52,991 nt of DNA from Bacteroidota bacterium (lineage in GTDB: Bacteria > Bacteroidota > Bacteroidia > JACCXN01), in NCBI GenBank assembly GCA_013696965.1, contig JACCXN010000024.1:1-52991 (forward strand), read 5' to 3'. The notes beneath the pieces were generated by a model, which made no database searches, was not told the origin of the DNA, and saw nothing but the letters and a program-made list of their open reading frames with translations. This document shows, in pieces, positions 5,279 to 28,058 of this stretch. Both the position numbers and the translations under genes were made by a program. Every line of letters begins with the position of its first letter. The stretch's first letter is position 1.

Positions 5279-6669
5279 GATGTTAACACATTGATTGTTA
5301 GTATTTTGAAAGCAGAAATATGTGTTTTATTTTGCAAGATTTCGTATATTTATTTCGTAAAACTTGCAAATTGAAACTATGTTATCAAAACCAAAAATAT
5401 TAAATCAGTCTAGTTTTTTCTTTTCTTTACCAGACACTCTAAATCAACGGCATCCTTTGTATGTTTTAGCCAACAGGGTTGATTGGCAGATGTTTGAAAA
5501 TGCATTCAGCCCACTTTACTGCCTGGATAATGGCCGTCCAGCCAAACCTATTAGATTGATGGTGGGATTATTGATTTTGAAACACATTCTTAACATTTCA
5601 GATGAAAGTGTTGATGAACAGTGGGCCGAAAATCTTTACTACCAATATTTTTGCGGCTACCAAGAGTTTTTATCTTCTGCTCCATGTGAAGCCTCTGAGT
5701 TAGTTCATTTTCGTAAGCGGAGAGGTGAATCAGGGATAGAATTGATTTTAAAGGAAAGCATTCGAATTAATGAAAATAATGGCGATGACGAAAATGTAAG
5801 CATTGATACAACCGTTCAGGAGAAAAACATTACATTTCCTACAGATAGCAAGTTGCATAAAAAACAAACTTACACAAGAGTATTAAAAAAAATAAGTGTA
5901 GATCAACGCTTTCGGAACCATCAAAAAACAAAGCAAAAGCACGAAAAGCTGATAAAAAGGTAAAAACAATTGCAGGGAGGTTAGTTCGTGAATTAGAACG
6001 AAATCTCAAAACGGATTCTGTGCATCAAAAGGTAATTGTACTTTTTAAACAGGTGCTTCAGCAAAAGAGAAACAGTAAGAATAAAATTTATTCATTACAT
6101 GAACCAAATACAGTATGTATTTCTAAAGGGAAAGAGCATAAAAAGTTCGAGTTTGGCAATAAAGCATCATTCATTTACACCCAAAACACCGGTGTGATTA
6201 TCGGAGCAATGGGTTTTAGGAACGAGTTTGACGGACACACCTTAGAACCAGCTTTAGAACAGGCTGAAAGAATGGTCGGTAAAGTGCCAAAAAAGCTGCG
6301 GTGGATCGAGGCTATCGCGGAAAAATCAAAAAAGGAGAAACTCACATTCTAATACCAAAGCCCTTCAACAATAAAACACAAACAAAGTATCAGCAACAAA
6401 AACTAAAACAAGCACACACCACTAGAACTGCAATCGAACCAGTGATAGGCCATCTTAAAACAGATCATCATTTGGGCAGGAACTTTTACAAAGGTATTGT
6501 GGGGGACAATATCAATATTATTCTAGCTGCTGCTGCTTTTAATTTCAAAAGAATGATGAACAAATGGAAATCATCTTTTTGTTCTCTTTTTCAAAAACAT
6601 ATTGTCAGTTTTGAAAATATGTTTATAGAAATATTTATTCTAAAATGGGGTTTTTAAGGCTCAACCAAT
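5260..6669 (+). mobile_element. IS5-like insertion sequence, complete ends
   Basis: The 1410 bp element has imperfect terminal inverted repeats (5260-5278 and 6651-6669, 17 of 19 positions matching, core GTTGAGCCTTAAAAA). It is flanked by ACTTA on both sides (5255-5259 and 6670-6674), a likely 5-bp target duplication. Inside is one transposase on the plus strand, split by two frame changes. Intact ends and direct repeats argue for a fairly recent insertion. Assignment to IS5 rests on the N-terminal DUF772-like region and the DDE motif spacing; the exact subgroup is uncertain. Confidence 0.85.
5379..6657 (+). pseudogene. IS5-like DDE transposase, two -1 frame changes
   Basis: Three overlapping frames together give one transposase of about 426 residues. 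The first runs from ATG 5379 to 5963 and holds the DUF772-like region (PIRLMVGLLILKH, DESVDEQWAENLYYQYFCG) and the first catalytic Asp (SIDTTVQ). The second resumes near 5924 with KARKADKKVKTIAGRLVRELER and runs to 6352. The third takes over at 6295 with AAVDRGYRGK (second Asp) and contains AIEPVIGHLKTDHHLGR (catalytic Glu). Both changes are -1 and both fall on A6 runs, 5923-5928 and 6289-6294. The second is a perfect A_AAA_AAG heptamer in the correct phase for -1 ribosomal frameshifting. Alternatives are single-base losses from A7, real or introduced by sequencing. All three catalytic residues are present. Confidence 0.8.
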
Positions 6670-6818: not shown

Positions 6819-9641
6819 TTAAGGCTTAGGTTTGCTTTTTTCAAATGCCTGCTTCATATATTTATCCTGGTATTGTACCCATGCAGCAAGCCTTTTTCTT
6901 CCTTCGTTCTCATAGTCTTTTTTTGTGTTTACCACGTTCTTTTTTTCATCAGGGTCAAATTCCAAATCATAAATTTCATGTGAATTGCTCGTTGCGTTAT
7001 ATATGAACTTGATTTTATCATCTCTGTATCCAAAAAGGAAATCAGACCATGGTGCATAAAAATAGGTCCTGGGAATTCTCTCCCTGTTTAATAGGCTCTC
7101 GCCTTGCCATTCTTTAGCTGGTTGCAGGTTAAGCATATTAAAAATGGTGGGTGCAATATCTATATGTCCAGCAATTACAGGATTACGTGTACCTTTAAAC
7201 AATACTGGATTAATAAAAATCAAGGGAACATGAATGTTTTCCTCGTATAACTTAGAGGCATGGCCGGTTTGCCCGTGCTGACCAAATGCTTCGCCATGAT
7301 CAGCAACAATTACAACCAAAGTAGAATCCATAATATTACTCTCCTCCAAAAATTTTAATAGTTTGCCTATTACTGCATCAGTATGATTAAGTGCATTCAA
7401 ATATTTGTTAAATTCAGGATTGTCAACCTTGTAATCAACTTCTTTTTCACTTGTAAGAAAGTATGGGTAATGCGTTTGATACGTCCAGAGGACTGAAAAA
7501 AACGGTTTCGACTTATCATCTGAAACCCATTTTTTGAAATCATTGACAATACATTCATCATCTGCGCCATCAGAATTTTCCCAGGGATTTTCTTTTACAA
7601 TAAGTTGATTTGATGCACAAGTCCCATTTTTAAAATCGCTAACCACATCAAAATCTCTGAAAGACAAATATGAACCAACATTTTGAAAATCATTATCCGC
7701 AGATGTAAAAAAAGAGGTCCTGAATCCTTGCTTTTGTAATTCAGAACTTAGGGTAGGATGATCGATATTGGTATGTTCTTTCGTAATACTTTTATAGGAA
7801 ATCCAGGGATAAATTCCGGCAAGTAATGAAACCATTGAGATGTTAGTGGATGGGGCATGAGCATAAGCATTTTCAAAAACCAAAGATTGATTAAAATAAG
7901 AAGACAAAACAGGTGTGGCCTTGTAATTAGAACCATATAAATTTAAATACTTTGCTGATACTGATTCCATTACGAATAAAACAACATTTTTTATTCTGGC
8001 ACTATCGATTTGTTCAACCCGCTTAATTTTACCTTCTTCAAACTCCTGGTTGTATTCTTTTGTAACTTCAAAACTTAGAATGTCAGGGTTCAGGTTCGTA
8101 TCTATCATTGAACTTAGGAATGCCATTATAGGGTTTTGCAATTTTCCCTTATCTTTAAATGATTGATCTATTGTTAAATAAGAAAAGGCATAAAAAACAA
8201 CCATTGAGCCCGGAAAAGCATAAGAAAGAATTTTTTTATATTTATTAGTATGCAGGCTATTCCAGACCGATTGAGTTATTTCCTTTAAAATATATAACGA
8301 TACGCACAAGGCAAGGATATTGACTATTAGTTCAAAATTGATATTGCTTGTAAAAGCATTTCGTGCATCAACACTGCCCAAGAAATCAGAATAATAAAGC
8401 CATTGATAATTAAATGGGGTGCCAAGCATTTCAACAGCTTTAATATTAAATACGCCAACTACCAAAGAAAAAAAGCAAAGAAAAATAAAACTTCCATTCA
8501 TAATTTTGCTTAAAAAAATCCTGTTTTTAAAAAAAACATGGATTACATAAAACAAAATATATAAAAGTGTAATATAAAATACATCATATACCGATGCTTT
8601 AAAAACATCAAGGGTAAGCAAAGAGTACGATGTATCTACATCATATTTTATTCCTGCTGCGTTGGCTCTAATTAGAATAAGAAAAACGGCAAGGGAAACA
8701 GTCCAGGCTTTTCCTGAATGAAGGAATGAATTCTGATTTTTAAAAAATTTCTTTATTATTAGGTATTTAAAAATTAAATAAATCAGTATAAAAGCTGAAA
8801 GAATATAAAAAGAATTTTTTGCAATGTTTGGAAAAGCTTGTGGCCTGTTTACATAGATAATTGCTTGTTCAGAAGGCATATCCATTATTTCACTATTTGA
8901 TCGTGTAATTGGAAAGTCTTCTTTTTCATCCCAATATTGACATTCTTCAAAAGAAAATTTAATTTTATTTATCATGTATCCATAATTCAAAACGGCTCCT
9001 TTGGGCACGGTCAAGGTTGTAATAAAAGTGCCTTTAACGTTCTTCATGGGAATTCTCATAATATTATTTTGAACGAAAGAGCCTTTTGGTCTTAGTGCTT
9101 CAGGAACAGAACTCCATCCATTAATCCCCCATACAAGATCCACATCAGCAGCTTTTGGGAAATGATATTTAATGGTAGTTGTTATTAAGGCCGAATCATT
9201 GGAAAAATTAATTATTTCACTAAAGTTCATCACTTTGCCAACTTGTTCAATAGTGGTTATTTGGGGCACTATTTCAGATACTGAATCCCTTGCAATTGTG
9301 CTATACTCTCCTGTCCAAATATAATCATGGGGAAAATCAGGTGTTTCTGTTTTTATACAAAAACCATAATTTATTTCACTGTTTTCATGCGCTATAATAT
9401 CAATTGAATAATAATGGCCTTGCTGTTTCATAGGACTATGCATTATTCCATTATTAATTAATGTTCCGGCAGGCCTTAGTTCAAGTGGAGCTACTTTCCA
9501 TTTTTCACCTCCCCAAACAAAGAACACTTCCCCACTTACAGCTAAATGGTATTTAAAAGAATGGGTAACCAGTTTAGCATTTGTAGGAAATACTAAAAGG
9601 GAAAAAAGACTTGTGAAAATTAAAATTAAATAGTTGTTCAT
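6819..9641 (-). CDS. membrane sulfatase/LTA-synthase-like enzyme with duplicated N-terminal domain
   Basis: 940 residues. Residues 1-22 look like a signal peptide. Residues 41-97 and 169-224 are an internal duplication: VWG...W...P..LRP.G....N.IM..PMK, ending NYG..I, beta-rich and possibly carbohydrate-binding. About six membrane helices follow (278-298, 312-325, 353-372, 384-400, 436-453, 471-490). Residues 550-890 form an alkaline-phosphatase-superfamily domain with VMES (metal-binding Glu559), APSTNISMVSLLAG (nucleophile region, Ser598/Thr599) and ADHGEAFGQHG (Asp781/His782). An even helix count puts both soluble parts outside the cytoplasm. The canonical sulfatase C/SxPxR motif is absent, so phospho-group transfer to a polymer, as in LtaS-type enzymes, is at least as likely as sulfate hydrolysis. 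It lies 11 bp after the glycosyltransferase fusion gene and is probably co-transcribed with it. Confidence 0.8.
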   Translation of the reverse strand: MNNYLILIFTSLFSLLVFPTNAKLVTHSFKYHLAVSGEVFFVWGGEKWKVAPLELRPAGTLINNGIMHSPMKQQGHYYSIDIIAHENSEINYGFCIKTETPDFPHDYIWTGEYSTIARDSVSEIVPQITTIEQVGKVMNFSEIINFSNDSALITTTIKYHFPKAADVDLVWGINGWSSVPEALRPKGSFVQNNIMRIPMKNVKGTFITTLTVPKGAVLNYGYMINKIKFSFEECQYWDEKEDFPITRSNSEIMDMPSEQAIIYVNRPQAFPNIAKNSFYILSAFILIYLIFKYLIIKKFFKNQNSFLHSGKAWTVSLAVFLILIRANAAGIKYDVDTSYSLLTLDVFKASVYDVFYITLLYILFYVIHVFFKNRIFLSKIMNGSFIFLCFFSLVVGVFNIKAVEMLGTPFNYQWLYYSDFLGSVDARNAFTSNINFELIVNILALCVSLYILKEITQSVWNSLHTNKYKKILSYAFPGSMVVFYAFSYLTIDQSFKDKGKLQNPIMAFLSSMIDTNLNPDILSFEVTKEYNQEFEEGKIKRVEQIDSARIKNVVLFVMESVSAKYLNLYGSNYKATPVLSSYFNQSLVFENAYAHAPSTNISMVSLLAGIYPWISYKSITKEHTNIDHPTLSSELQKQGFRTSFFTSADNDFQNVGSYLSFRDFDVVSDFKNGTCASNQLIVKENPWENSDGADDECIVNDFKKWVSDDKSKPFFSVLWTYQTHYPYFLTSEKEVDYKVDNPEFNKYLNALNHTDAVIGKLLKFLEESNIMDSTLVVIVADHGEAFGQHGQTGHASKLYEENIHVPLIFINPVLFKGTRNPVIAGHIDIAPTIFNMLNLQPAKEWQGESLLNRERIPRTYFYAPWSDFLFGYRDDKIKFIYNATSNSHEIYDLEFDPDEKKNVVNTKKDYENEGRKRLAAWVQYQDKYMKQAFEKSKPKP

Positions 9642-9652
9642 CTGCTTGATAT

Positions 9653-12600
9653 TTATTGTTTTTTAGTGCTTTTTTTAATCTTAAAACCTTTTGAAGCAGT
9701 GTATACATTGTTGTTTTTGTCATACACATATGCATAGATTCTGTAATCACCGATCTCTGTGGGCAGGGTAACTATTGCAGATTCCCCTTTATCTATCGCT
9801 TTAATATTAGGTAATTTCTCAAGCATTATTTTTTCCCCACTGCTGCTCCATTGCTCTGTTTTATATAAAAACCATTCATACCTTATATTTTTGTTGGATT
9901 TCCAGTCTGCATTTAATTCTAAGCCGTAAGTAACTTGTTTTGCCCCTGCAACTTTTTCTTCTGGCTTTTTAATGCTTATGTAGGATGTATTTAAATCTTT
10001 TTTATCGTATTTCCAGAGATTTTTTAAGGCATAATAAGTCGGTTTTAACCTCCCTTTGTAATCAGTAATGCCATACCAGGTATTCGTGCCTTCCATCCTG
10101 TCTCTCCAGGAATAAATAACTCCTCCTAAATTATGCCCCTTGAATTTTTCCACATAATTAGTCCATTCATCTGTATATAGTTTTGCCTTATGAAAATCAT
10201 TATCTTCCAACAATATCATTTCCTCATCAAATTTTGTAAAGTTTGGATTCCAATAGCCACTAGGACCAAATTCTGAAATCAAATAAGGCCTTTTAGCATC
10301 AAAAGCAGATGTAATATCCTGAAGCATTTCAAGTTGTTGGGTGTAATAGGAATTAATGGCAATAATGTCAAGTGATGGAGCATTTTTCTCATAGGCTACT
10401 AATTCTCCTGCCAATTGAAACCAATCATGTTCACATGCAGTAATTACCGGTCGGCCAGGATCTAATTCATGGATTCTTTGGGCCATGAATTCTATCATTT
10501 TTACATACTCTATTCTCACTTTAGTCAAATAAGGATAAGAGAATTTAAATTTTGTTAAGCCCCAAGCCTCATTTCCGATAGTCCATGAAATAATAGAAGG
10601 ATCATTTCGGTATCTAACAACCGTATTTTCTACTTCTTTAATGTATTTGTTAACTTGAATTGTGTCAGTAAAATAATCTACTTTGGGATCAAACCAAAAA
10701 CCATACAGAACCTTTAAATCAAATTTTTTTGCAGTTCGCAATACATTTCGGTCATAAATTCCAGGGTTGTATCTTCTTATAGAATTTGCCCCCATGGCTT
10801 TAATCAATTTAAAATCCTTGGTAACCTGTTTTCGTGTAAGGGGGTGGTTGCCATCTCGCCAATCATGACCTGGATTATAAGCAACCCCTTTAATATAAAA
10901 TGGTTTATCCTCAACCAATAGTTCAAAAGAGCCCGGTTTCCCTTTTATAAATTTTCGTTGTGTGTGTTTTTTTAATTTATAGCTATAATATTTTGATTTC
11001 TTTTTTACTGGATCATCAACAAATGGAATTTTTGCCATAACTTCTCTAATCGTTGGATATAAGTTAACGGAATCTTCCAGGGTCCATTTAATGTAGGTTG
11101 GCGGGTTTTTTACTGAAGAATTTGGAGGCCAGTTTTTATCCTGGTCGCTGTTAAAAAAAACCACAGAGCTTATCTCCTTATATTTGTTTTTTATTTGTTT
11201 CAATGCTGTAGACATCCATTCGCCCTGGTCTCCTCCATAAGTAGTTGAACCGAATTCCGCAAGCATGATAGGTTTATCAATAATCAAAAGATTGTCTCTG
11301 AAACGCTCATAAAGTTTTTCGAATGAAATCCATTTTCCACCTGCCTCTCCAAAATTCAATGCTGTAATTGCTACCCAATGAACATAATTTTTTCCAGGAT
11401 AATATTTTTTCACGTTTTCACTATCCCATGGACTATACACCCAGGTGACATTGGACACTCCGTTTTTTTCGAAAAAAACATACACATATCTCCATGCTGC
11501 AATAAAGTCCGCTGGTGTATTGCCACCAGAGGTTGACCAAGGATAGGCAGGATTATCGGGCTCGTGAGCGAAGCGTATAAAAACAGGGTCCCCAAAATTT
11601 CTTATCTTCAAAGAATACTCCATTAAGTATTTATCAAACTTCCCTGCTGCTATTGCCTTGCAAACCCCCTTGTTGTTTTTTAATTGGGGATCTAATTCAT
11701 AATCAGGAAAGGTATTGGACCAGGGTTCCCAGGTTATCATTGGAACAGCCCCTTTATTTGTTATTTCTTTTAAAAACTTTTCCGGAAATTCTTCAAGGCT
11801 TTTTGTCCCCCATGCCTGATAAAAGGAAATAATATCAAATGACGTATTAAATGATTTTTCTAGCCCTTCTACAGGATCTAAAGAATAATTTTTTTCGAAT
11901 TCAGGAAAATAAACCCCAGTATAAAAGCCACCCTCTGGCTTTTCGAAATTACCTGGTTTAACATTACTTAAAAACAAGAAAACACTTAGCCCAATAAAGA
12001 AAAATGAACTATACGTTATTGTAGGATTTAAAATAGATTTTGTTCGCCTTTTAAATAAACCGAAAGGAATAAATAAAGAAAAACTGAATTTTGAATTCAA
12101 TATAGGATGCTTTATAAATTTCCAAACCTTATTCCTGCTTAAAAAAACCATAAGAATAAGAATAAAGGCATTTGTAAAAGCAAATGATGCTATTGCAATA
12201 CTATAAGGGGTCCAATCTATATATAACCCATAACCTATAGCAGCAAAACACAATACAAATACGAATAAATTTGGTATGAGTACCTTCTGATTATCGGATT
12301 CGTTGTTTTTAGGAGTAGGTATATATGGAACTTTGATCCTCAAAATGCTGTAAATCAATCCGAGTAAATATATCCACCAGGTTGCATTCCTTACTATCCC
12401 CCCTGCAAGATGCAACCCTCTTTCTTGTTCTTCCATCAGCCATCTTTGAGCGTATAACCTAATAGCCATTGACAAGCCGCAAAGGGGGACAAAGAACAAA
12501 GCAAAGTTATTTAAATCAATTGCCCATGGAACTTCTGCTAAACCTAGTGCAAATAAGGGAATGATTATGTCAATTAAAGTAATTAAGCCAAAAAGAAAAT

Positions 12601-13618
12601 AGAATGGAAGAGTGAGATAATGTATTTTCTGTCGAAAATTAAATTTGTTAAACAATTTTGGGTAAGTACAAAACAACAATTCAAATGTTCCACGCGACCA
12701 CTTCAATTGCTGAGAATAATATGCGCTCAAAGTAGATGGAACCAAACCCCTTGTTAGTATTTCGGGAATATAAACTGATTTCCAACCTTTACTGTGAATT
12801 TGCATTGCTGTGTGCATGTCCTCAGACAATCCTGCAGCATGACCGCCAATAGAATCAAGAGCCTCTCTTCTAAAAGCACAGTTTGCGCCAATTGATTGGG
12901 CTGTGCCATAAGTATTCATGCACATCATCATTGGGCCATAAAAATGATAGGTTTGTTCTGCTGCTGCCTGCGCTATAAAACTTTCCTTCTGGTTGTAATA
13001 GCCTTGTACGGACTGCACAAAACCAATTTTGCTATCCTCAAAATAGGGTATTACCCGGTCTATCATTTCTGGAATAGGAATGTGATCAGGATCAAGAATA
13101 ATACATATTTCCCCTGATGCTTGTTTTAAAGCATTGTTGATGTTTCCTGCTTTGGCATCTTTTTTCACCTTTCTTGTAACATGTATAACCCCCAAATCTT
13201 CACAAACTTGTTTAAGCTCAGCATCATTACCCTCATCGCACAAGTAAGATGTATGTGGATAGCTTATGTTTTTTATAGCAATTAAGGTATTAATAATCAT
13301 GTCTTTTGGCTCCCCTGGGCATGCTGTGGTAAAAACATCTACTTTCCATTTGGTTTTTATCTCTGGCACCTCTGGTATGCTTACATCCCAGTAATGATAC
13401 CATTCATGTATCATTTTTAGCAACTTAAACACAAGAGCAGAGGACAGCAGCCAAAACAGGACCGGATGCCCTATGTGTATAGGATCAAAGAACCATTTTG
13501 CAAATAAAAGGATGATAATTATTCCGAATACAATGAGAATTCGAATGATTGTTTTATCTTTCTTTCTTATAGAAACAATCCTTGTGACATTTGGTTGAAG
13601 AATTTTTCTATTTTCCAT
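9653..13618 (-). CDS. GT2 polysaccharide synthase fused to GH26-like and GH2/GH5-like domains
   Basis: 1321 residues. Two membrane helices (23-41, 51-70) precede a cellulose-synthase-like GT2 domain with Asp128 (CDEGND), DPD 176-178, Glu266-Asp267 and QQLKW 303-307. Lys306 replaces the usual Arg of QxxRW. Further helices lie at about 333-361, 372-390, 408-427, 448-465, 470-494 and 534-551. Residues 560-860 are GH26-like, with acid/base Glu686 (RFAHEPDNP) and nucleophile Glu788 (LAEFG). Residues 895-1205 are a clan-A barrel resembling GH2/GH5, with Glu1017 (IGNEAW) and Glu1116 (ISEFG). A beta-sandwich follows at 1230-1315. It presumably polymerises a nucleotide-sugar into a beta-glycan and processes the chain during export; polymer identity is unknown. 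The start overlaps the upstream glycosidase gene by 11 bp, suggesting translational coupling. Confidence 0.85.
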   Translation of the reverse strand: MENRKILQPNVTRIVSIRKKDKTIIRILIVFGIIIILLFAKWFFDPIHIGHPVLFWLLSSALVFKLLKMIHEWYHYWDVSIPEVPEIKTKWKVDVFTTACPGEPKDMIINTLIAIKNISYPHTSYLCDEGNDAELKQVCEDLGVIHVTRKVKKDAKAGNINNALKQASGEICIILDPDHIPIPEMIDRVIPYFEDSKIGFVQSVQGYYNQKESFIAQAAAEQTYHFYGPMMMCMNTYGTAQSIGANCAFRREALDSIGGHAAGLSEDMHTAMQIHSKGWKSVYIPEILTRGLVPSTLSAYYSQQLKWSRGTFELLFCTYPKLFNKFNFRQKIHYLTLPFYFLFGLITLIDIIIPLFALGLAEVPWAIDLNNFALFFVPLCGLSMAIRLYAQRWLMEEQERGLHLAGGIVRNATWWIYLLGLIYSILRIKVPYIPTPKNNESDNQKVLIPNLFVFVLCFAAIGYGLYIDWTPYSIAIASFAFTNAFILILMVFLSRNKVWKFIKHPILNSKFSFSLFIPFGLFKRRTKSILNPTITYSSFFFIGLSVFLFLSNVKPGNFEKPEGGFYTGVYFPEFEKNYSLDPVEGLEKSFNTSFDIISFYQAWGTKSLEEFPEKFLKEITNKGAVPMITWEPWSNTFPDYELDPQLKNNKGVCKAIAAGKFDKYLMEYSLKIRNFGDPVFIRFAHEPDNPAYPWSTSGGNTPADFIAAWRYVYVFFEKNGVSNVTWVYSPWDSENVKKYYPGKNYVHWVAITALNFGEAGGKWISFEKLYERFRDNLLIIDKPIMLAEFGSTTYGGDQGEWMSTALKQIKNKYKEISSVVFFNSDQDKNWPPNSSVKNPPTYIKWTLEDSVNLYPTIREVMAKIPFVDDPVKKKSKYYSYKLKKHTQRKFIKGKPGSFELLVEDKPFYIKGVAYNPGHDWRDGNHPLTRKQVTKDFKLIKAMGANSIRRYNPGIYDRNVLRTAKKFDLKVLYGFWFDPKVDYFTDTIQVNKYIKEVENTVVRYRNDPSIISWTIGNEAWGLTKFKFSYPYLTKVRIEYVKMIEFMAQRIHELDPGRPVITACEHDWFQLAGELVAYEKNAPSLDIIAINSYYTQQLEMLQDITSAFDAKRPYLISEFGPSGYWNPNFTKFDEEMILLEDNDFHKAKLYTDEWTNYVEKFKGHNLGGVIYSWRDRMEGTNTWYGITDYKGRLKPTYYALKNLWKYDKKDLNTSYISIKKPEEKVAGAKQVTYGLELNADWKSNKNIRYEWFLYKTEQWSSSGEKIMLEKLPNIKAIDKGESAIVTLPTEIGDYRIYAYVYDKNNNVYTASKGFKIKKSTKKQ

Positions 13619-14897
13619 TTCCTTTTATTTTAATAGGGGTTTGAATTAAAAAAGGAATATTCCCAGTTGCTGCTTTATTCAGATTGTGGTCAAAAACATA
13701 AACAAAAAGCCGGTAAGCTCCATTTTCATTGGGTGAATGAAAAGATACATTTCCGCCTTCGCAATCGAACAGAACTTCTATGTATTCTCCTGAATTAAAT
13801 GTGGATTCATTTTCTTTAAACAAGGCCCATTTTATATTCAATTCTCCTTCATTTGTAGCCCTGCTTTTTACTTGTGCAGTAATAACCTTCCCTGGTGGAA
13901 GAGTAATGTTATCATAAGCTTGCTTTTTTTCCAGGGTTAGGGTGTTCAAAACAGGTGCTTTGGTTTCAGGCCAGTACCCTGTCCACAAATAGCTTAACAT
14001 ATCTACCATTGATGTTGCTTCCCCTGTATTTAGGAACAAGCCAAAAAGGGTATGTGTTCCTTCGTTTTTACTTCCCCAAATAAAAACATAGGTTCCAAGA
14101 CACAAACCCTTGTCTCTTTTAATAAAATTTTCATAATTGCTCTGACAAGTCAAGGCTTTTTGTGAACTGCTTTCCTCAATAAATGCTTTCCAGGGAGTTA
14201 CAGCACTCTCCCAGTAACCGGATGCGCCCCATTCGGAAATAATATAAGGCTTGTTCCACCCTGCCTGTTCAAGTATATAAGGCACACTTGGTAGTTCCTT
14301 AAAAACATTTATGCCTATTAAGTCCAAATTCTGGCAATGTTTACTGATATATTTCAATACTTTAGGAGGTGCGCCCGCAAGCATTGTTGATGTTGGGTGA
14401 TTTGGGTCAATTTCATGAATCATTTTGGCTATTTCATTAACAGCATTCCAAACCTTCTTGTTTTTTTCATTCAAGTGAAGCTCATTGCCAATTCCCCACA
14501 ACAACAAGGCTGGATGATCTTTATATTTTAAAACCTCGCTTTTTATAAAAAGGAATTGCTCCAAAACCTGTTGCTCGTTGTCATAGTCAAATTCTGTTTG
14601 TTTTGTTCCCATAAACAATCCAAGAGTAACTGTTAGACCCAGCGCTTGAGCACTATCCAAATAAGATTGTGCATTGTCGGTATTCCATAATCTTAATGAA
14701 TTTCCGCCACTCGTTTTTAACTGATCCAAATATTTAAATCCTCCTGCCCCTTTTATAAAATAAGGCTTCCCCTCTCTATATAAAATATAGCTGTTTTCTT
14801 TTTGCTTTCTTATTTCTACTTTTATAGGTTGGGATAATAGAACTTGTGGTATTGTAAGCACAATTGCTATTAGAATATGGATAAAAAAAGCTCTCAT
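13608..14897 (-). CDS. secreted clan-A glycosidase (GH2/GH5-like)
   Basis: About 429 residues from the chosen start at 14897, where MRAFFIHILIAIVLTIPQVL followed by LLSQ makes a signal peptide; the frame runs 36 codons further upstream without one. The TIM barrel shows LLWGIGNELHLN (acid/base Glu) and IISEWGASGYWE (nucleophile Glu). It also has a C-terminal beta-sandwich ending in AYRLFVYVFDHNLNKAA. Both the barrel and the sandwich resemble the C-terminal third of the downstream fusion protein, including the SGYW after the nucleophile, so they are related by duplication. First gene of the cassette, it overlaps the next start by 11 bp. Likely role: hydrolysis or transglycosylation of the same polysaccharide in the periplasm. 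The substrate cannot be read from sequence. Confidence 0.8.
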   Translation of the reverse strand: MRAFFIHILIAIVLTIPQVLLSQPIKVEIRKQKENSYILYREGKPYFIKGAGGFKYLDQLKTSGGNSLRLWNTDNAQSYLDSAQALGLTVTLGLFMGTKQTEFDYDNEQQVLEQFLFIKSEVLKYKDHPALLLWGIGNELHLNEKNKKVWNAVNEIAKMIHEIDPNHPTSTMLAGAPPKVLKYISKHCQNLDLIGINVFKELPSVPYILEQAGWNKPYIISEWGASGYWESAVTPWKAFIEESSSQKALTCQSNYENFIKRDKGLCLGTYVFIWGSKNEGTHTLFGLFLNTGEATSMVDMLSYLWTGYWPETKAPVLNTLTLEKKQAYDNITLPPGKVITAQVKSRATNEGELNIKWALFKENESTFNSGEYIEVLFDCEGGNVSFHSPNENGAYRLFVYVFDHNLNKAATGNIPFLIQTPIKIKGNGK

Positions 14898-15451: not shown

Positions 15452-16132
15452 TTACTTGGATTTAAGTACAGAAAACACAAGATGTTCAAGAAAATCGGCA
15501 ATGTTTTGGGATTGATTTTTTTCTGCTTTAATATCGGACAAAGAGGGTAAATGCTGTCCGAAAAACAACTGCTCATGAGCAGTCTCAATAATTGTACTTG
15601 CCAGGGAATTGGGATATGGATAATTCGTATTTACTTCCTGAATAACAGAACCTATTTTTTTATTCAAAATTTTATAGCTGCTGAAAAAACCAGCTTTGTT
15701 TTCCTTATCAACCAATTTAGTTAAATACGCCTTTGCTGATTCTGCTACCACAATTTTATGAAGAAGACTTTCATCAATATGAGAAATGGCAGGATCTTCT
15801 TTATATGACTCAGAAATAATTCTAATAATAATTTTTAATCTTTCCTCGGCAAATACTATGTTATTTGTTTGGTAATCTATTAGATAATCTATCCATGCAT
15901 AATACCAGGATATAAGATAAACCAACAACTTGTGTTTATTTTCAAAATACCTGTAAATTGAGGCCTCTGTTGAATTAATTTCCTTTGCTGCCTTTTTGAA
16001 AGTAAACTCCTCAAAACCAATCTCTTCAATCAAGTGAATACTCTTGCCAATAATTTTCCGACCTAATTCAGAATCTTCTGGGTTGCGTAAGTATAATTTC
16101 TCGTTTAATTTAATTTGGATTGCGAAAGGCAT
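15452..16132 (-). CDS. TetR/AcrR-family transcriptional regulator
   Basis: 226 residues. The N-terminal helix-turn-helix is clear: IIGKSIHLIEEIGFEEFTFKK-type helix 1, then AAKEINSTEASIYRYFENK with the IYRYF recognition helix characteristic of the family. The remaining 150 residues are helical and would form the ligand and dimer domain. It lies 12 bp after the carbonic anhydrase gene and reads in the same direction, so it is probably the last gene of a SulP - carbonic anhydrase - regulator operon and may control it. The ligand is unknown. The distance from the operon head leaves the operator unidentified. Confidence 0.85.
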   Translation of the reverse strand: MPFAIQIKLNEKLYLRNPEDSELGRKIIGKSIHLIEEIGFEEFTFKKAAKEINSTEASIYRYFENKHKLLVYLISWYYAWIDYLIDYQTNNIVFAEERLKIIIRIISESYKEDPAISHIDESLLHKIVVAESAKAYLTKLVDKENKAGFFSSYKILNKKIGSVIQEVNTNYPYPNSLASTIIETAHEQLFFGQHLPSLSDIKAEKNQSQNIADFLEHLVFSVLKSK

Positions 16133-16144
16133 TTTTAATACTTT

Positions 16145-16801
16145 TTAAGAAGTTATTTTCTTTTTAATGTTTTCAAATTTAAAAACACTGGAAAGTTCTG
16201 AATCGTCCTTTACTGTTACATCCAGATCAATAATTAATCCATTGTGAATATCATATACCCAGCCATGTACTTCAGGGGCTTTTCTGTTTTTCCAGGCATT
16301 TTGAATAATTGAAGTTTTTGACAAATCATAAACTTGTTCAATAACATTGAGTTCAACAAACCTGTTCAACCTTACATTTTCATCTTCAATGCTGTCTAAC
16401 TCTTCCTGATAAAGTCGATATACATCCTTAATATGCCTTAACCAGTTATCAATAATTCCAAATTGTGAATTTCCCATGGCTGCCTTTATACCTCCGCAAC
16501 CATAGTGCCCACAAACAACAACATGTTTAACATCAAGTACATTAACTGCATAGTCCAATACGCTTAGCATACTCATATCCGTATGTATAACCATATTTGC
16601 AATGTTGCGGGTAACAAAAACTTCCCCTGGTTTTGTTCCTGTAATCTCATTTGCAGGAACCCTGCTATCTGAGCATCCAATCCATAAAAGTGGCGGAGTT
16701 TGCCCTTTTGCAAGTTTATCAAAAAAATCAGGGTCTTCTCCCAGTTTTTCTTCAACCCACTTTTTATTGTTGTCCAGTAATGTTTTATAAAATGGATCCA
16801 T
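16145..16801 (-). CDS. beta-class carbonic anhydrase
   Basis: 218 residues, normal for the bacterial clade B enzymes, catalysing the interconversion of CO2 and bicarbonate. The zinc ligands and catalytic dyad are all visible: Cys43, Asp45 and Arg47 in CSDSR, then His99 and Cys102 in CGHYGCGG. The segment PGEVFVTRNIANMV is also typical. No signal peptide, so the protein is cytoplasmic. It sits 81 bp downstream of a SulP transporter gene, a pairing that implies bicarbonate rather than sulfate as the transported ion, with the enzyme setting the internal bicarbonate/CO2 balance. Confidence 0.95.
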   Translation of the reverse strand: MDPFYKTLLDNNKKWVEEKLGEDPDFFDKLAKGQTPPLLWIGCSDSRVPANEITGTKPGEVFVTRNIANMVIHTDMSMLSVLDYAVNVLDVKHVVVCGHYGCGGIKAAMGNSQFGIIDNWLRHIKDVYRLYQEELDSIEDENVRLNRFVELNVIEQVYDLSKTSIIQNAWKNRKAPEVHGWVYDIHNGLIIDLDVTVKDDSELSSVFKFENIKKKITS

Positions 16802-16882
16802 AGTATTGTTTTTCGAATTTTAAATTTAAATTATTTTTCAAAATATACCTATTCTTAATTAACTTCTCGTGTTTATTAAAAC

Positions 16883-18502
16883 CTAATGTCCGGCAATTGT
16901 AGTAACTTTTCGTATTCCAATAAGTTCTAAATTAATGCCTTTTAATTTTGCCGTTTCCTTAAAATTTTCAATCATTTCCAGTACATCATAATCTATGGAA
17001 GCTGAACTTGAACCATCAATTGTTACTACAGAATTTTCAGGAAGGTTTTCAAGCATTAGAAGAATACTTCCCTTATTTAAAAAGGTAACTTCCTCTGCTA
17101 GCATTATGGTAATCTTTTCCCCTTTTTTGAAATCTTCTTTATGAAAAAAGTAAGGGGTGCGGTAATTGTTGCGAAGTATAAAAAATATAGAAAATGCCAT
17201 GCCTATTCCAATTCCTTTTAATAAATCAGTAAATAAAATAGCTGTAATAGTAACTACAAAAGGAATAAATTGGTCCCAACCCAATATATACATCCTTTTG
17301 AACAAACTTATTTTGGCCAGCTTATATCCCACAAGCAACAGAATTGCTGCTAAACATGCAAGAGGAATCTGGTTCAATAATACGGGTATGAATGCTGCGC
17401 ATACCAATAAAAGAATTCCGTGAAGAATAGTAGACATTCGTGTTCTTCCTCCTGCATTTATATTTGCAGAACTTCTTACAATTACGGCTGTTAATGGAAT
17501 TCCGCCTATTAATCCTGAAATCATATTACCTATTCCCTGAGCCCTTAATTCCCTATTGGTAGGGGTGTTTCTTTTATATGGATCTAGTTTATCTGTGGCC
17601 TCTACACTTAAAAGTGATTCAATACTGGCAATTATGGCAATTGTCCCTGCAATTATATAAACATCAGGATTGCTAAGATGTGTAAAATCAGGAAAAGTAA
17701 AAAAACCTATAAAATCAGGAATATTAGATGCAACCGGAAGATTCACCACATGATCCATGCTTAAAAATAATTCAGGTACTGATACTTTAAAAAACTGATT
17801 TAAAAGTATTCCTGCAAAAACTACAAACAATGCACCTGGAAGTACTTTAAACAAAGCTATCTTTTTCATAAAAGGCCTTTCCCAAAGAATTAAAATTCCA
17901 ATTGAAACTACGCTTATAATTACTGCACCAAAATGCATATTTTGAAAGGCAAACCAAATATCGGTAAAGGTATTATGACCTCCTTTTTCGTTAAAAGAAA
18001 AATCCCCTTCGTAATCAAAATCATAACCAAGTGCATGAGGAATTTGTTTTAAAACAAGTATAAGTCCTATGGCTGCAAGCATGCCTTTAATAACAGCAGA
18101 AGGAAAATAATGTCCTATTATACCTGCTCTTAAAACACCAAAAATAATTTGAAAAAAACCAGCCAAAACAACCGCCACAAGAAAAGCATCATAGGATTGT
18201 AACTGATTAATTGCCGCTAATACTATTACTGTTAATCCAGCTGCAGGGCCACTAACACTTAATGGAGAATGACTGTATAAGCCTACTACTATACCACCTA
18301 TTATACCTGAAATAATTCCAGAAAACAATGGAGCTCCAGAAGCAAGAGCAATTCCTAGACACAAAGGCAGTGCTACAAGGAACACTACAAGTGAAGAAGG
18401 CAAATCATATTTAAAATTGGATAACATTCCCAGTTCTTTGGGATCAGGCATTTTTTGAGCCATGAAAAAAATAATTAAATTGTTTTTTATAAATGATAGC
18501 AA
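16883..18502 (-). CDS. SulP-family anion (probable bicarbonate) transporter
   Basis: 539 residues with about 10-12 membrane helices and SulP hallmarks: GLYSHSPLSVSGPAAGLTVIV, IASIESLLSVEATDKLD and NRELRAQGIGNMISGLIGGIPLTAV. Residues 455-535 are a short STAS-like domain (VVTIDGSSSASIDYDVLEMI). The start may instead be the internal ATG at 18463 (MAQKMPDPKELG), because the first 13 residues are hydrophobic and unusual. The adjacent carbonic anhydrase suggests HCO3- uptake coupled to Na+ or H+; sulfate or another anion remains possible. It heads the operon that continues into the carbonic anhydrase and the TetR regulator. Confidence 0.9.
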   Translation of the reverse strand: MLSFIKNNLIIFFMAQKMPDPKELGMLSNFKYDLPSSLVVFLVALPLCLGIALASGAPLFSGIISGIIGGIVVGLYSHSPLSVSGPAAGLTVIVLAAINQLQSYDAFLVAVVLAGFFQIIFGVLRAGIIGHYFPSAVIKGMLAAIGLILVLKQIPHALGYDFDYEGDFSFNEKGGHNTFTDIWFAFQNMHFGAVIISVVSIGILILWERPFMKKIALFKVLPGALFVVFAGILLNQFFKVSVPELFLSMDHVVNLPVASNIPDFIGFFTFPDFTHLSNPDVYIIAGTIAIIASIESLLSVEATDKLDPYKRNTPTNRELRAQGIGNMISGLIGGIPLTAVIVRSSANINAGGRTRMSTILHGILLLVCAAFIPVLLNQIPLACLAAILLLVGYKLAKISLFKRMYILGWDQFIPFVVTITAILFTDLLKGIGIGMAFSIFFILRNNYRTPYFFHKEDFKKGEKITIMLAEEVTFLNKGSILLMLENLPENSVVTIDGSSSASIDYDVLEMIENFKETAKLKGINLELIGIRKVTTIAGH

Positions 18503-21941: not shown

Positions 21942-24900
21942 ATGGCAAAAAAAGATACTAAAGAACTATTAATTGAAGAAGTAAAGCTTCTTAAAGAAAA
22001 AATTGCTTTGCTTGAAATAGAAAAAGGAAATATATCCTTTCAGGAAAATTTTTTCCCAGGCCTTGCCGTAATAAATAAGCACGAAAAAAACATTGAAAAA
22101 AACGAAGAACGTTTAAAATTAGCTTTGGGGGCTTCGGGCATTGGTGTTTGGGAATGGGACATTAGCTCAGATAAAATTAATTGGTCAGATTCAGTTTATG
22201 ATTTATTTGAAGTTAAAAAATCAAAAGAAAAATTAATTCTTCAATCCCACCTTTCAATAATTTACTCCGAAGATGTTTCTTATTTTCAATCTATTTTAAA
22301 TAGTTCTATTAAAAATAATGTACCATTTGAGTTAAAGCACAGATTGGAAAAACACAAAGAAAACTGGATTTTGTGCAAGGGTATAATATTGACTGAAAAC
22401 AATGGCTTAGCGTATAAGGTAATTGGTAATGTTATGGATATTACCAACCGGATTAAACATGAACAACTTTTATTGGCATCTCAGGAAAGACTGAGAAAAC
22501 AAAACAAAGCATTATTGGAATTATCGGGAAGGGTAAACGTTAAAATGGGAGAAACGCGCCTGGTGATTAATGATGTTTTAATTACTGCTGCCGATATTAT
22601 GGAGCTTCCAAGGGTTGGCCTATGGGTTTTAAATGATGAAGAGGACTGCCTGAGCCATTTTGCAGGATACTACAACAAAAATTTTTCTACCGAAAACAGG
22701 GTATTAGAATTAGCAAACTATCCGGTATATTTCAATGCAATTCGGAATAAAAACGTAATCGTTACACAGGATGTTTATTCCAATGATTTAACGCGGGAAT
22801 TAGTAAGTTACTGCAGCAAAAATAAAATTACCTCTATGCTTGATATTCCCTTAATTGTGAATGGCAAAATAAAGGGAATTGTTTGTTTTGAACAACAAAA
22901 TTTTATACGCAACTGGACCTTGGATGAGCAAAATTTTGCTGGAGCGGTTGTAAATATTATTGCACTTGCCATGGAGGTCTCAGAAAGAATAAAGGCGCAA
23001 GAGCAATTAAAATTATCAGAAAAAAGCTACTATGAACTTTTCGACAATAGCCCTGAATTAATTTATATACAGGATAAAAACAGCGTTTACATTGATGTAA
23101 ATAAAGCTGTAATTGAGAAATATGGCTTAACAAGAGAACAAATAATAGGAAATAAACCGGATATGCTTGGGGCATCAGGAATGAACGACAATGCATTACT
23201 GCTGGAAAAAATCAATTTAGCCTGGGAGGGAGGCTCCCATAAGTTCAACTGGTGGGGCAAAAAGAAAAACGAGGAGGTTTTTCTCAAGGAAATAGTAGTA
23301 AGGAGAGGCAGGTATTTTGGTATGGATGTAATTATTGCATCAGGAAGGGATATTTCAGAACAAAAAAAATATGAAAACCTATTAATAGAAAAAGAACAAA
23401 ACCTGTCAATGGTTTTAAATAACATTGATTATTTAACATATAGTTCAGATATTATTAATGGAAACATTGAATTAAAATACATTAGCCCCCATTCTCAAAA
23501 AATCATTGGATTTACAACAGCCGAATTTATTAGCGCCTTAAAAAGCAATGGGCTAAAAGACCATTATCATATTGACGATGTTCCTAAATTAATGAAAGCT
23601 GCGGATGAAATAAAAAACACAAAAAAAAGCGCAACCCTTATATACCGCTTTTTTCATAAAACAAAAAAAAGGTACATATGGATTGAAGAATCCATTTTTC
23701 CACAATTTGATAACCAGGGGAAAAGGAGAGCAAATTTTGGAGTTTTAAGAGATGTAACTGAAAGAGTTACAGCCGAACAAAGCCTGATTAAAAGCGAAGA
23801 AAGATACAGGTTGTTATTTGAAAGTAATATGGCAGGGGTTTTTAGAACTACCATTTCTGGAAAAATCATTGAGTGCAACAAGGCCTTTGTAGATATATTT
23901 AAATATGATTCGGTTGATGAAATACAAGGAAGAAGTGCTGCGGAATTATATGCCAGCAAAAAAGAGAGGGAAATATATATTGAAGACCTCAAAAAATATG
24001 GAAGCCTTTATAATTACCAAATAAAGAGTGTAACAAAACAGGGAAAAAACGTGTGGCTATTGGCAAGCGTTACCCTTGTTAATCCAAGTGAAAAAGAAAG
24101 GGAACAGGAAATTTTAGGAACCCTTATTGATATAACGGAGCTTAAAGAAGTGCAGGAAACATTGCTTGAGAACGAAGAAAAGTTTAAAAGCATTGGCGAA
24201 TCTGCCCCGGTGGGTATATTTTTAACAGATATTGAGGGAAGGCCTGAATATATTAATCCAAAGCTTCAGCAATTAATTGAAATACCTCTAAACGATACTG
24301 TTGATAAATCCCTTATTAATAGGATTCATCCGGGAGATTTTAAACAATTGCTAACAAGTACAGATTTTGCATTAAAAAACAAAGGCGATTTAAATATTGA
24401 GTTCCGATTAATAGGTGAAAAAGCCCAGTTAATCTGGGTTTGTTTAAATGCAACTGTAAGAAAAAACTCAAAAGGAGAAATTGCTGGATGGGTTGGTACC
24501 GTTGAAGATATTACAGATAGAAAAACCTCAGAGGATATTATTAAGGAAAGCGAACAGCGCTTTAAACTTTTATCAGAAGTTGCCATAGAAGGCATTGTTT
24601 TAACCGAAAATGCTGTGGTTTTTGATTGCAATAACCGATTTTATGAAATGCATGGATACACTTCAAAGGAAGAAGTTATTGGAAAGCACGTTTTAGATTT
24701 TTTAATGCCCGAATTTCATCAGCAGGCTTTGAAAAGCATGGAGTTTAAAAAGTCAAAATCAAGCGAAGTAATTGCAGTTACCAAAACAGGAAAACCAATT
24801 ACAATTGAAATCAGCGGTATGCAAATTCCCTATTACGGTAGAAAGGTTAGAGTTTCTGTGCTTTATGACATTAGCCAGAGAAAAAACATTGAAAATTCTT

Positions 24901-27900
24901 TGAAGGAAAGCGAACGCGCCCTTTCAACGCTAATGAGCAATCTTCCCGGGATGGCCTATCGTTGTCAGAACAATCCTTCATGGACAATGGAATTTGCAAG
25001 CGCAGGTTGCCTGGAGTTAACCGGATATAAATCCAAGGAACTTATTAAGAACAATAAAATAGCTTACGATCAAATAATTCACCCAAAAGACAAAGAAAGA
25101 GTCTGGAAAATCATTCAAGGTTCCCTTGCAAGCAAAAATTCTTTCGAATTGGAGTATCGAATTATTACAGCCTCGGGAAAAACAAAATGGGTGTGGGAGC
25201 AGGGGGAGGGAGTGTTTGACGAAAAGGGAAAAGTAAAAATCATTGAAGGATTTATTACCGATATCAGTGAAAGGAAGGAATTTGACAGTCTTATACGCCA
25301 AAGTAGAAAAAGTTTTAAGGATCTTATTGACTTTTCTCCGGTGGGGGTTATAATTGTGCAGGGAAAAAGTGTAGTTTTTGCCAATCCGGTTGCAAGGGAT
25401 ATTTTAAAAATTTCCGACAACTTTAGAATTGATAAGGCCTCGATATTTGATTATTTGCAACCCGAGTACCATGCAACTGTAAAAAACAGCTTAGGCCGCA
25501 TTAAAAAGGGCGAAAAACTAGCTTTTGCTGAAGTTAAGGTAAGATCAACAGATGGAGCAATTATAGATATTGAAACCAATGGAACAATTACTAATTTTTT
25601 GGGTAAAGAGGCAATACAAATTGTTTGTCACGATATTTCCTATCGCAAGCAGCTTCATAATGAGCAATTAAGGGCCGAAGTGGCAGAGGAGACAAATAAA
25701 ATACTTAAACAAGAAATTTCCGATCGCGAAAAGGCTGAAAAAATGCTTATTGAAACTCAAAAATTCACAAGAAATATTATTGACAGCTCCCTTGATATTA
25801 TTTGGGCTACCGATAAAAATGGATTTATCATCGAATTCAACGAAGCGGCACAAAAAGCCTTTGGTTTTGGTTTGAATGAAATGAAAACCCAATCCCCACA
25901 AGTTTTGTACGCTGTAAATGAGGATTTTAATAAAAGCAATAAAACGATTATCAAAACGGGTACCTTTTCTGGAGAAATTAAAAACAAAAGGAAAAACGGG
26001 GAAATATTTACCAGCTATATGTCTGCATCCTTTCTTTTTGATGAGAACGGGGATCAGATTGGGTCAATGGGAATTTCCAGGGACATAACCGGATTGAAGC
26101 TGGAGGAAGAGAGAAAGGAAACTCAATATGCAATAACAAGAATACTTTCAGAAGCTCCCTTCTTCTATGAAGCCGCCCCTGCTATACTAAGTGCATTCGC
26201 TTTCGGATTTAATCTTGATTATGGCGAAATATGGCTTGTTAACAATCAAAACAATGAACTTGATTATTACTGTGGATTTGTTAATCCTAATTTTAAGCAA
26301 ACAGCATCAAAAAAATTTCAGAATGGTTCAAAAAAGATGAAATTTTCTTCAGGAGAAGGCCTGGCAGGTAAAATTTGGAGTAATAACAAAACAATGTGGA
26401 TTGAAGATTTAGAAAAATCCTCAATTTCTCCTCTTAAGAAAGAAGGCCTGATGGCGGGATATAACAGTGCTTTTGGATTTCCGATCAAAAGTGGAAAATT
26501 AACTCTTGGGGTTTTCAACTTCTTTAGTAGCAATACCATTAAAGAAAATCATGAATTATTAAACCTTTTACCAGTAATTGGCTCCCAGATAGGGCAATTT
26601 ATTGTACGTAAAAAGGCAGAAGAAGAACTCAGGGTCAGTGAAGAAAGATTTAAAGCTATTTATAATGTTGCCGCTGTTGGGATTGCTAGGGTGAGCCTAA
26701 CCGGGAAATTTATACAGGTAAATCAGCGCTTGTGTGATATTTTTGGTTATACAGATATTGAATTATATGCTAAAACATTTCAGGAATTTACCTATTCAAG
26801 AGATCTTCAAAAAAGTATTCTGTTTCTAAAAAAGCTACTTTCAAAAAAAATAGAAAAGTTTACTCAGGAAAAAAGATACATTCATAAAAATGGAAGTATA
26901 ATTTTTGTTAACCTAACCGTTTCTGTTGTAAAGGATGAAGATGGAAATCCCGATTATTTTGTTTCTGTATTTGAAGATATATCAGAAAGAAAATCATCAG
27001 AAGAAAAAATATTTAAACAGGCAGCAAAACTCAATTCAATTTTTGAAAGTTCATCACATCAAATATGGACACTTAATAGAAATTATGAATTAACGTCATT
27101 TAACCAGAATTATGTAAGAGCAATAAATAAATTCTTTAATGTTGAACCCCTTTTAGGAACAAATGTACAAAAGGCAAGTAAATTATTGCTGGATGAGAAG
27201 ACCTTTGAGCAGATAAATAAGATATACAAGGAAGCCTTCAAAGGTATACCCCAGCATTTTGAGATACCATATTATTCTAAAGAAGGCAAAAGCATCTGGT
27301 TGGAAACCTTTCTAAATCCTATTAGGCTTGAAAAGGGAAAAATTGAGGAAATTTCATGCATTGCTCAGGACATTACCGGAAAAAAAATAATTGAGCAACA
27401 AATTAAAAGCTCGCTTAAAGAAAAAGAAGTGCTTCTTAAAGAAGTTCATCATAGGGTGAAAAATAATTTACAGGTAATTTCAAGCATTCTTAACCTGCAA
27501 TCCTCTAACCTGACAGATAAAAAAGTACTGGATGTATTAAAGGAAAGCCAGGACAGGATAAAGACAATGGCATATATTCATGAGAGTCTTTACCAATCAA
27601 AGGACTTTAGCCAAATAAATTTTTTGGAATACATTGATAATTTATCAAGGAATTTATTACATTCATACCGCGGTCATAATAATTTTGTCGATTTAAAGTT
27701 AGATATAGATAAAGTTTACCTAAATTTGGATTTAGCTATTCCATGTGGGTTGATAATAAATGAATTGGTTTCAAATGCTTTAAAGTATGCATTTCCAAAA
27801 AACAAAAAGGGAACCATTTTTATTGGTGTGAAGGTTATGGCTGATGATCTTCAAATTACTGTTAAAGATAACGGAATTGGCTTTCCACAGCATATAGTTT

Positions 27901-28058
27901 TTAAGAATACAGAAACCTTAGGTTTGCAGCTAGTTACCGCCTTGTCTGAGCAAATTTGTGCTACAATAAGTATGGAAACAAAGTTGGATCAGGGCACAAG
28001 TTATATATTGAGTTTTAATTACAAATTAAATAAAACAAATCCCAATGGCAAAAGTTAA
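21942..28058 (+). CDS. giant multi-PAS/GAF hybrid-free sensor histidine kinase (HisKA_2 type)
   Basis: 2038 residues, no membrane helices, so probably a cytoplasmic sensor. A short coiled coil (5-30) is followed by PAS (56-172), GAF (190-350), PAS at about 355-476, 486-610, 619-730, 744-857, 869-975, 989-1105, 1120-1230 and 1271-1380, GAF (1393-1553), and PAS at 1565-1676 and 1693-1808. The domain ends are marked by DIT/DIS..K motifs. The transmitter is of the HisKA_2 kind: EVHHRVKNNLQ (phospho-acceptor among His1836/1837), then NELVSNALKYAFP and DNGIGFP of the ATPase domain. The cognate response regulator overlaps the 3' end by 14 bp. Ligands of the PAS domains are not predictable; no heme or flavin motif was recognised. 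Confidence 0.92.
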   Translation: MAKKDTKELLIEEVKLLKEKIALLEIEKGNISFQENFFPGLAVINKHEKNIEKNEERLKLALGASGIGVWEWDISSDKINWSDSVYDLFEVKKSKEKLILQSHLSIIYSEDVSYFQSILNSSIKNNVPFELKHRLEKHKENWILCKGIILTENNGLAYKVIGNVMDITNRIKHEQLLLASQERLRKQNKALLELSGRVNVKMGETRLVINDVLITAADIMELPRVGLWVLNDEEDCLSHFAGYYNKNFSTENRVLELANYPVYFNAIRNKNVIVTQDVYSNDLTRELVSYCSKNKITSMLDIPLIVNGKIKGIVCFEQQNFIRNWTLDEQNFAGAVVNIIALAMEVSERIKAQEQLKLSEKSYYELFDNSPELIYIQDKNSVYIDVNKAVIEKYGLTREQIIGNKPDMLGASGMNDNALLLEKINLAWEGGSHKFNWWGKKKNEEVFLKEIVVRRGRYFGMDVIIASGRDISEQKKYENLLIEKEQNLSMVLNNIDYLTYSSDIINGNIELKYISPHSQKIIGFTTAEFISALKSNGLKDHYHIDDVPKLMKAADEIKNTKKSATLIYRFFHKTKKRYIWIEESIFPQFDNQGKRRANFGVLRDVTERVTAEQSLIKSEERYRLLFESNMAGVFRTTISGKIIECNKAFVDIFKYDSVDEIQGRSAAELYASKKEREIYIEDLKKYGSLYNYQIKSVTKQGKNVWLLASVTLVNPSEKEREQEILGTLIDITELKEVQETLLENEEKFKSIGESAPVGIFLTDIEGRPEYINPKLQQLIEIPLNDTVDKSLINRIHPGDFKQLLTSTDFALKNKGDLNIEFRLIGEKAQLIWVCLNATVRKNSKGEIAGWVGTVEDITDRKTSEDIIKESEQRFKLLSEVAIEGIVLTENAVVFDCNNRFYEMHGYTSKEEVIGKHVLDFLMPEFHQQALKSMEFKKSKSSEVIAVTKTGKPITIEISGMQIPYYGRKVRVSVLYDISQRKNIENSLKESERALSTLMSNLPGMAYRCQNNPSWTMEFASAGCLELTGYKSKELIKNNKIAYDQIIHPKDKERVWKIIQGSLASKNSFELEYRIITASGKTKWVWEQGEGVFDEKGKVKIIEGFITDISERKEFDSLIRQSRKSFKDLIDFSPVGVIIVQGKSVVFANPVARDILKISDNFRIDKASIFDYLQPEYHATVKNSLGRIKKGEKLAFAEVKVRSTDGAIIDIETNGTITNFLGKEAIQIVCHDISYRKQLHNEQLRAEVAEETNKILKQEISDREKAEKMLIETQKFTRNIIDSSLDIIWATDKNGFIIEFNEAAQKAFGFGLNEMKTQSPQVLYAVNEDFNKSNKTIIKTGTFSGEIKNKRKNGEIFTSYMSASFLFDENGDQIGSMGISRDITGLKLEEERKETQYAITRILSEAPFFYEAAPAILSAFAFGFNLDYGEIWLVNNQNNELDYYCGFVNPNFKQTASKKFQNGSKKMKFSSGEGLAGKIWSNNKTMWIEDLEKSSISPLKKEGLMAGYNSAFGFPIKSGKLTLGVFNFFSSNTIKENHELLNLLPVIGSQIGQFIVRKKAEEELRVSEERFKAIYNVAAVGIARVSLTGKFIQVNQRLCDIFGYTDIELYAKTFQEFTYSRDLQKSILFLKKLLSKKIEKFTQEKRYIHKNGSIIFVNLTVSVVKDEDGNPDYFVSVFEDISERKSSEEKIFKQAAKLNSIFESSSHQIWTLNRNYELTSFNQNYVRAINKFFNVEPLLGTNVQKASKLLLDEKTFEQINKIYKEAFKGIPQHFEIPYYSKEGKSIWLETFLNPIRLEKGKIEEISCIAQDITGKKIIEQQIKSSLKEKEVLLKEVHHRVKNNLQVISSILNLQSSNLTDKKVLDVLKESQDRIKTMAYIHESLYQSKDFSQINFLEYIDNLSRNLLHSYRGHNNFVDLKLDIDKVYLNLDLAIPCGLIINELVSNALKYAFPKNKKGTIFIGVKVMADDLQITVKDNGIGFPQHIVFKNTETLGLQLVTALSEQICATISMETKLDQGTSYILSFNYKLNKTNPNGKS

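Follow-up and report, generated by a model that had tools for sequence, protein, structure and literature searches.

A GT2 glycan synthase fused to GH26 and GH158 barrels in a three-gene Bacteroidota cassette

Results

Organization of the cassette

A BcsA-like GT2 synthase that carries a GH26 and a GH158 barrel in the same polypeptide was found in a stretch of Bacteroidota DNA that was analyzed over its 52,991 nucleotides (the window). The synthase gene is the central one of three tightly packed minus-strand genes in the ORF list (Table 1). It overlaps the gene of a secreted GH158 enzyme by 11 bp and is followed, after a gap of 11 bp, by the gene of a membrane-bound transferase-like enzyme, which agrees with the gene placing of an earlier sequence-based reading of this DNA (the original prediction). 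We lean slightly towards the view that the locus is a self-contained machine that would make a modified beta-glucan, cleave or transglycosylate it in the periplasm and decorate it with phospho-groups.

The next gene upstream, for a TetR-type regulator (15452-16132), is separated from the cassette by more than 500 bp and does not evidently belong to it. A scan for promoters and terminators returned sites no more numerous than in shuffled sequence. Three further features were noticed by eye in the surroundings: a 199-aa ORF (5364-5963) resembling the N-terminal part of a transposase, located downstream of the cassette in the opposite orientation; a carbonic-anhydrase-like gene beside a SulP-type transporter-like gene (16145-18502), plausibly a bicarbonate pair; and a 2038-aa ORF (21942-28058) resembling a histidine kinase that contains many repeats of PAS type.

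Table 1. Features of the cassette and of its encoded proteins
Feature	Position	Strand	Extent	Basis
Membrane-bound alkaline-phosphatase-superfamily transferase-like enzyme	6819..9641	-	940 aa	Pfam Sulfatase E 2e-45; Thr599 alignment
CBM53-like beta-sandwich, tandem duplicate, of the transferase-like enzyme	8907..9572	-	residues ~24-245	internal repeat score
Fused synthase GT2-GH26-GH158	9653..13618	-	1321 aa	domain matches; end-to-end homologues
GH158-type barrel and C-terminal Ig-like domain of the synthase	9656..11008	-	residues 871-1321	alignment and Foldseek
GH26 barrel of the synthase, Lic26A-like, predicted periplasmic	11039..11941	-	residues 560-860	alignment and Foldseek
GT2 catalytic domain and seven predicted membrane spans of the synthase	11963..13618	-	catalytic domain residues ~90-320	BcsA matches, motifs, hydropathy, Foldseek
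Secreted GH158-family glucanase	13608..14897	-	429 aa	PDB search, signal peptide, Glu positions

The GT2 domain and the topology of the synthase

A PDB search matched residues 93-470 of the synthase to BcsA (5ej1, E 6e-41), and Foldseek likewise returned BcsA for the GT2 part of the AlphaFold model. The motifs CDEGND, DPD, SED and QQLKW are present, and membrane spans were predicted by hydropathy at residues 22-40, 52-70, 342-360, 372-390, 446-464, 474-492 and 533-551. Motifs, spans and fold place the domain among the BcsA-like processive GT2 beta-glycan synthases, with Lys replacing the Arg of QxxRW. It is not a cellulose synthase BcsA equivalog, as it scored 171.7 bits with the NCBIfam CelA model, whose cut-off is 699.1, and Pfam gave no PilZ match in the synthase. 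E. coli BcsA (134 bits) and Sinorhizobium BgsA (137 bits) scored about equally in BLAST, so that the GT2 domain does not decide the polymer. Identity to characterized synthases is just 26-29% and sugar and linkage are therefore not fixed by these matches. The QxxRW motif (window 12698-12712, residues 303-307) reads QQ(L/I)KW in all 30 aligned chains, whereas Arg occupies this position in E. coli BcsA and S. meliloti BgsA, and the Lys variant is possibly a marker of the synthase family. Segment 493-532 contains nine Lys or Arg and no acidic residues and is followed by the last span and then the barrels. Because of the spans and this basic charge, the barrels are predicted to lie outside the cytosol, in the periplasm.

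The GH26 barrel

In the whole-chain PDB search, residues 591-837 matched the GH26 lichenase CtLic26A (2bv9, E 2e-29). A single-domain query gave CtLic26A at E 8e-31 and other GH26 enzymes, including mannanases, at E 1e-7 or worse. Glu686 (acid/base) and Glu788 (nucleophile) align with the lichenase glutamate pair in LHE and AEF, which together with the homology to CtLic26A assigns the barrel to GH26. Foldseek retrieved 2bv9/2cip for this part of the AlphaFold model with TM-scores of 0.82-0.86 by target length. The Pfam profile PF02156 stays below threshold in the window chain and is passed in the relatives L042, L045 and L053. Mannan was considered as the polymer on account of the GH26 family and is disfavored, as the lichenase is much nearer than the mannanases.

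Two GH158 barrels, one fused and one free

The second fused barrel had been labeled GH2/GH5-like in the original prediction. Both families were ruled out, since GH158 scores far better: residues 938-1310 matched the GH158 structures 9oro (E 3e-22) and BuGH158 6pal (E 5e-20) with the whole chain, and a single-domain query found two GH158 structures (E 6e-24 and 1e-20) in alignments spanning the Ig-like domain. GH158 is a separate family of clan GH-A. Foldseek returned GH158 for the last part of the AlphaFold model, and Glu1017 (acid/base) and Glu1116 (nucleophile) align with the GH158 glutamates in GNE and TEFG/TEWG. The barrel is thus of GH158 type at a low identity of about 25%, for which a formal CAZy assignment needs curation. 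Family GH158 comprises beta-1,3-glucanases, and the residues of BuGH158 corresponding to Glu1017 and Glu1116 are the catalytic pair E137/E220, mutation of which abolishes activity (PMC7157763).

The other assignments made from the letters alone for this chain held, as the BcsA-like GT2 domain and a GH26-like barrel do share it and each of the four proposed glutamates has its counterpart in a known catalytic pair. The suggested structure modeling returned the BcsA, Lic26A and GH158 folds for the respective parts, with modest models (mean pLDDT 65, for the AlphaFold synthase model, and 61).

The free enzyme is a closer GH158 relative, matching GH158(Pro) 9oro at E 2e-84 and BuGH158 6pal at E 5e-59 in the PDB search. 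It begins with a signal peptide (about residues 1-22), and its catalytic Glu139 and Glu222 are the equivalents of E137/E220, so that both homology and active site assign it to GH158. Laminari- and mixed-linkage oligosaccharides had been soaked into the GH158(Pro) crystals.

In the relative L042 (7625-11653), the fused GH158 barrel passes the Pfam model GH72 of fungal beta-1,3-glucanosyltransferases (31.4 bits, cut-off 25.9), while the window synthase remains below this cut-off. The L042 match may be read as a hint of transglycosylation.

The transferase-like enzyme

The 940-aa protein consists of a tandem CBM53-like pair, membrane spans and an alkaline-phosphatase-superfamily domain with the conserved residues Glu559, Thr599, His724 and Asp781. 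Its Pfam Sulfatase match and the best overall BLAST scores, obtained with the sulfatases YidJ and AslA, would fit a sulfated polysaccharide system whose third gene encodes a sulfatase. However, Thr599 is invariant in nine of nine sequences and stands at the position that is Cys and Ser in YidJ and AslA, so that the formylglycine precursor of an arylsulfatase is missing from all nine and the sulfatase reading appears highly improbable. Thr599 aligns with a Thr in both OpgB and LapC of E. coli, and because sulfatases carry Cys or Ser there, the sequence makes a phospho-group transferase of the LTA-synthase/OpgB type more likely. A comparison with LtaS, OpgB and EptA identified the Thr, the conserved Glu/His/Asp-His metal-site residues and predicted spans; the OpgB model PRK12363, which has a cut-off of 572 bits, scored 44.6. 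Of the two flanking enzymes originally predicted, the secreted barrel enzyme was confirmed and specified as GH158, and the second half of its label is the more probable one for the sulfatase/LTA-synthase-like enzyme.

The repeat in the CBM53-like region scored 135, compared with at most 39 after shuffling. The Pfam CBM53 match is weak and under its cut-off, and the domain occurs in two copies in the window and in one copy in homologues.

Distribution of fused and split versions

GT2 relatives (E below 1e-60) were detected in 19 of 395 genomes sampled evenly from the class, representing 17 genera, and in 16 of 395 genomes sampled from the phylum, another class included. A named collection contributed 11 loci, all from Bacteroidota metagenome assemblies and partly from the same genomes. 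The domain-order search that had been proposed recovered the fused order GT2-GH26-GH158 in some 25 further Bacteroidota loci. Homologues can be aligned with the synthase along its entire length. As such homologues exist in many genomes, a frame or assembly error, which had been raised as a possible undoing of the fusion, and chance were both excluded.

Versions with separately encoded modules also occur. Loci L051-L055 combine a GT2-GH26 chain with a separate GH158 gene, L057 and L058 combine a GT2-GH158 chain with a GH26 gene that overlaps the synthase gene or sits a few bases away, and L059 has GT2 alone with a GH26 gene. A separate GH26 neighbor is found in some loci whose synthase lacks GH26 or the GH26 site. 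The coexistence of fused and split versions argues for joint action of the three modules. Of 37 related loci, 30 have a free GH158 gene and nine have an adjoining Thr-type transferase-like gene; no shared neighbors beyond the four core families were found except among close relatives.

Loss of active sites in the fused barrels

Both glutamate pairs are kept in only two of the 26 three-module chains scored, the window and L042. Sixteen have lost the GH26 pair and kept that of GH158, six show the reverse, and two retain neither; the diverged middle segments of L056 and L079, which received no GH26 call by BLAST, were counted as lost. One of the two chains without any pair belongs to L044 (6411-11814), where stops split off the GH158 end of the gene and both barrels show catalytic losses, and this gene is probably a pseudogene in progress. 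The free genes retain both glutamates throughout (30/30 GH158 and 6/6 GH26).

The opposite loss of the two sites is skewed in the raw table (Fisher p 0.003) but loses its significance when relatedness is taken into account, as only two to three independent tree comparisons exist. Since the pattern follows two main clades, few effective independent loss events are available. In the GT2 tree the window is nested among lost-site chains, implying several GH26 losses; in the GH26-domain tree the window and L042 fall outside these chains, implying perhaps a single loss. Both trees contain long branches and are uncertain for that reason. The alternating loss is a striking observation and not a tested rule.

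The persistence of barrels without catalytic residues points to an additional role that involves no catalysis, for example in chain guiding. This could be taken further: the fused barrels might mainly bind or guide, the catalysis that matters might be that of the free GH158 (or free GH26) enzymes, and the two intact sites of the window might be a retained ancestral state. The retention of inactivated barrels beside consistently intact free enzymes is in line with this proposal. However, chains without any intact barrel are limited to two, one of them frame-broken, and the window keeps all four residues together with their surroundings, which leaves a mainly binding or guiding role distinctly unlikely.

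Discussion

Proposed function

From the domain identities, their order, the catalytic residues, the likely topology, the conservation and the split versions, all visible in the sequence, we infer the following working model. The GT2 domain would polymerize glucose from UDP-glucose in the cytosol and thread the chain through the membrane spans of the same protein. Once in the periplasm, the chain would meet the tethered GH26 and GH158 barrels, members of retaining families, which could cut it or transfer it to itself or to another chain, thereby setting glucan length, releasing the chain and perhaps closing it into a ring. Hydrolysis and transglycosylation are not separated by sequence. The free GH158 enzyme may finish or recycle the product. 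The membrane enzyme with Thr599 would transfer a phospho-group from a lipid, probably phosphoglycerol or phosphoethanolamine, to the glucan held by its CBM-like domains. The higher overall similarity of this enzyme to sulfatases and its presence in only nine of 37 loci weigh against the model. The most probable polymer is a beta-1,3- or mixed beta-1,3/1,4-glucan, as indicated by both hydrolase families, located in the periplasm or at the cell surface.

A secreted exopolysaccharide, curdlan-like or of mixed linkage, for matrix or capsule was considered as well. The barrels would then edit or release the chain like BcsZ, and the transferase would decorate it like BcsG. No protein tested is nearer to the GT2 domain than BcsA and BgsA, E. 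coli BcsG has been found complexed with BcsA (9fmz) and the neighboring GH158 enzyme is secreted, all of which would suit export. On the other hand, neither BcsB, BcsC, PilZ nor a recurrent outer-membrane exporter was found in the window or in the related loci examined, and chains that meet endo-acting barrels tethered right behind the pore would probably remain short. Export as an exopolysaccharide is therefore unlikely, and the modified periplasmic or surface glucan is preferred.

In most relatives one fused active site is missing, and the hand-over proposed for the window would have to be altered there; two active sites are consequently not essential to the design. The original prediction of one coordinated unit for making, trimming or transglycosylating and decorating a polymer is well supported by the conserved fusion, the adjacent split modules and the transferase-like enzyme with its Thr nucleophile. 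Its sulfatase label is unlikely to apply, and the polymer named above is a putative product.

Chains in which both, either or neither barrel is active constitute a natural experiment that could reveal the step performed by each barrel. They are also a warning that GH26 and GH158 domains tallied as degradative in surveys of Bacteroidota may serve synthesis.

Comparison with known systems

Periplasmic and phospho-decorated glucans have been studied in Proteobacteria. Our literature search found no paper on a GT2-GH26-GH158 synthase type or its glucans in Bacteroidota. The single chain with two barrels had been called unusual; the idea of a synthase with two GH modules is not new, but the literature searched appears to hold no description of this module set, of its spread in Bacteroidota or of the alternating loss of the two sites. 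It is a tentative possibility that Bacteroidota have their own periplasmic glucan system, with an evolutionary origin separate from the proteobacterial ones, consisting of a single-chain GT2-GH26-GH158 synthase/transglycosylase and a phosphotransferase, in which lineages have retained only one of the two tethered sites.

Among the nearest parallels are the Pseudomonas NdvB/'Orphan' GT2-GH17 proteins, which are linked to a partly glycerol-phosphorylated cyclic beta-glucan and also unite in one chain a GT2 domain of BcsA type, spans in the membrane and a clan GH-A barrel that acts on beta-1,3-glucan in the periplasm (PMC10237404). They have one barrel, an N-terminal GH17, whereas the window synthase has C-terminal GH26 and GH158 barrels and adjoining genes for a free GH158 and a transferase-like enzyme. 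A glycosyltransferase and two product-processing GH-type modules are likewise joined in the beta-1,2-glucan system (PMC11842490, PMC10901819), but there an (alpha/alpha)6-type cyclization domain and a phosphorylase are used and a GH26 or GH158 module is absent. The system for osmoregulated periplasmic glucans in E. coli similarly has a GT2 synthase, a periplasmic processing enzyme and a phosphoglycerol transferase, to which the transferase-like enzyme may correspond (OpgG/OpgH and OpgB; PMC10514313, PMC3818809), but from separate genes and with an unrelated OpgG family, and OpgH had no significant BLAST match to the window GT2 (E 0.65). BcsA with BcsZ and BcsG shares the GT2 fold, the hydrolase partner and possibly the phosphoethanolamine transferase partner; in the window PilZ, BcsB and BcsC are absent, the glucanases are fused and of other families, and QQLKW replaces QxxRW. 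CtLic26A and BuGH158 belong to the same families and have the same Glu pairs as the fused barrels, but they are free degradative enzymes, whereas in the window these families are fused to a synthase.
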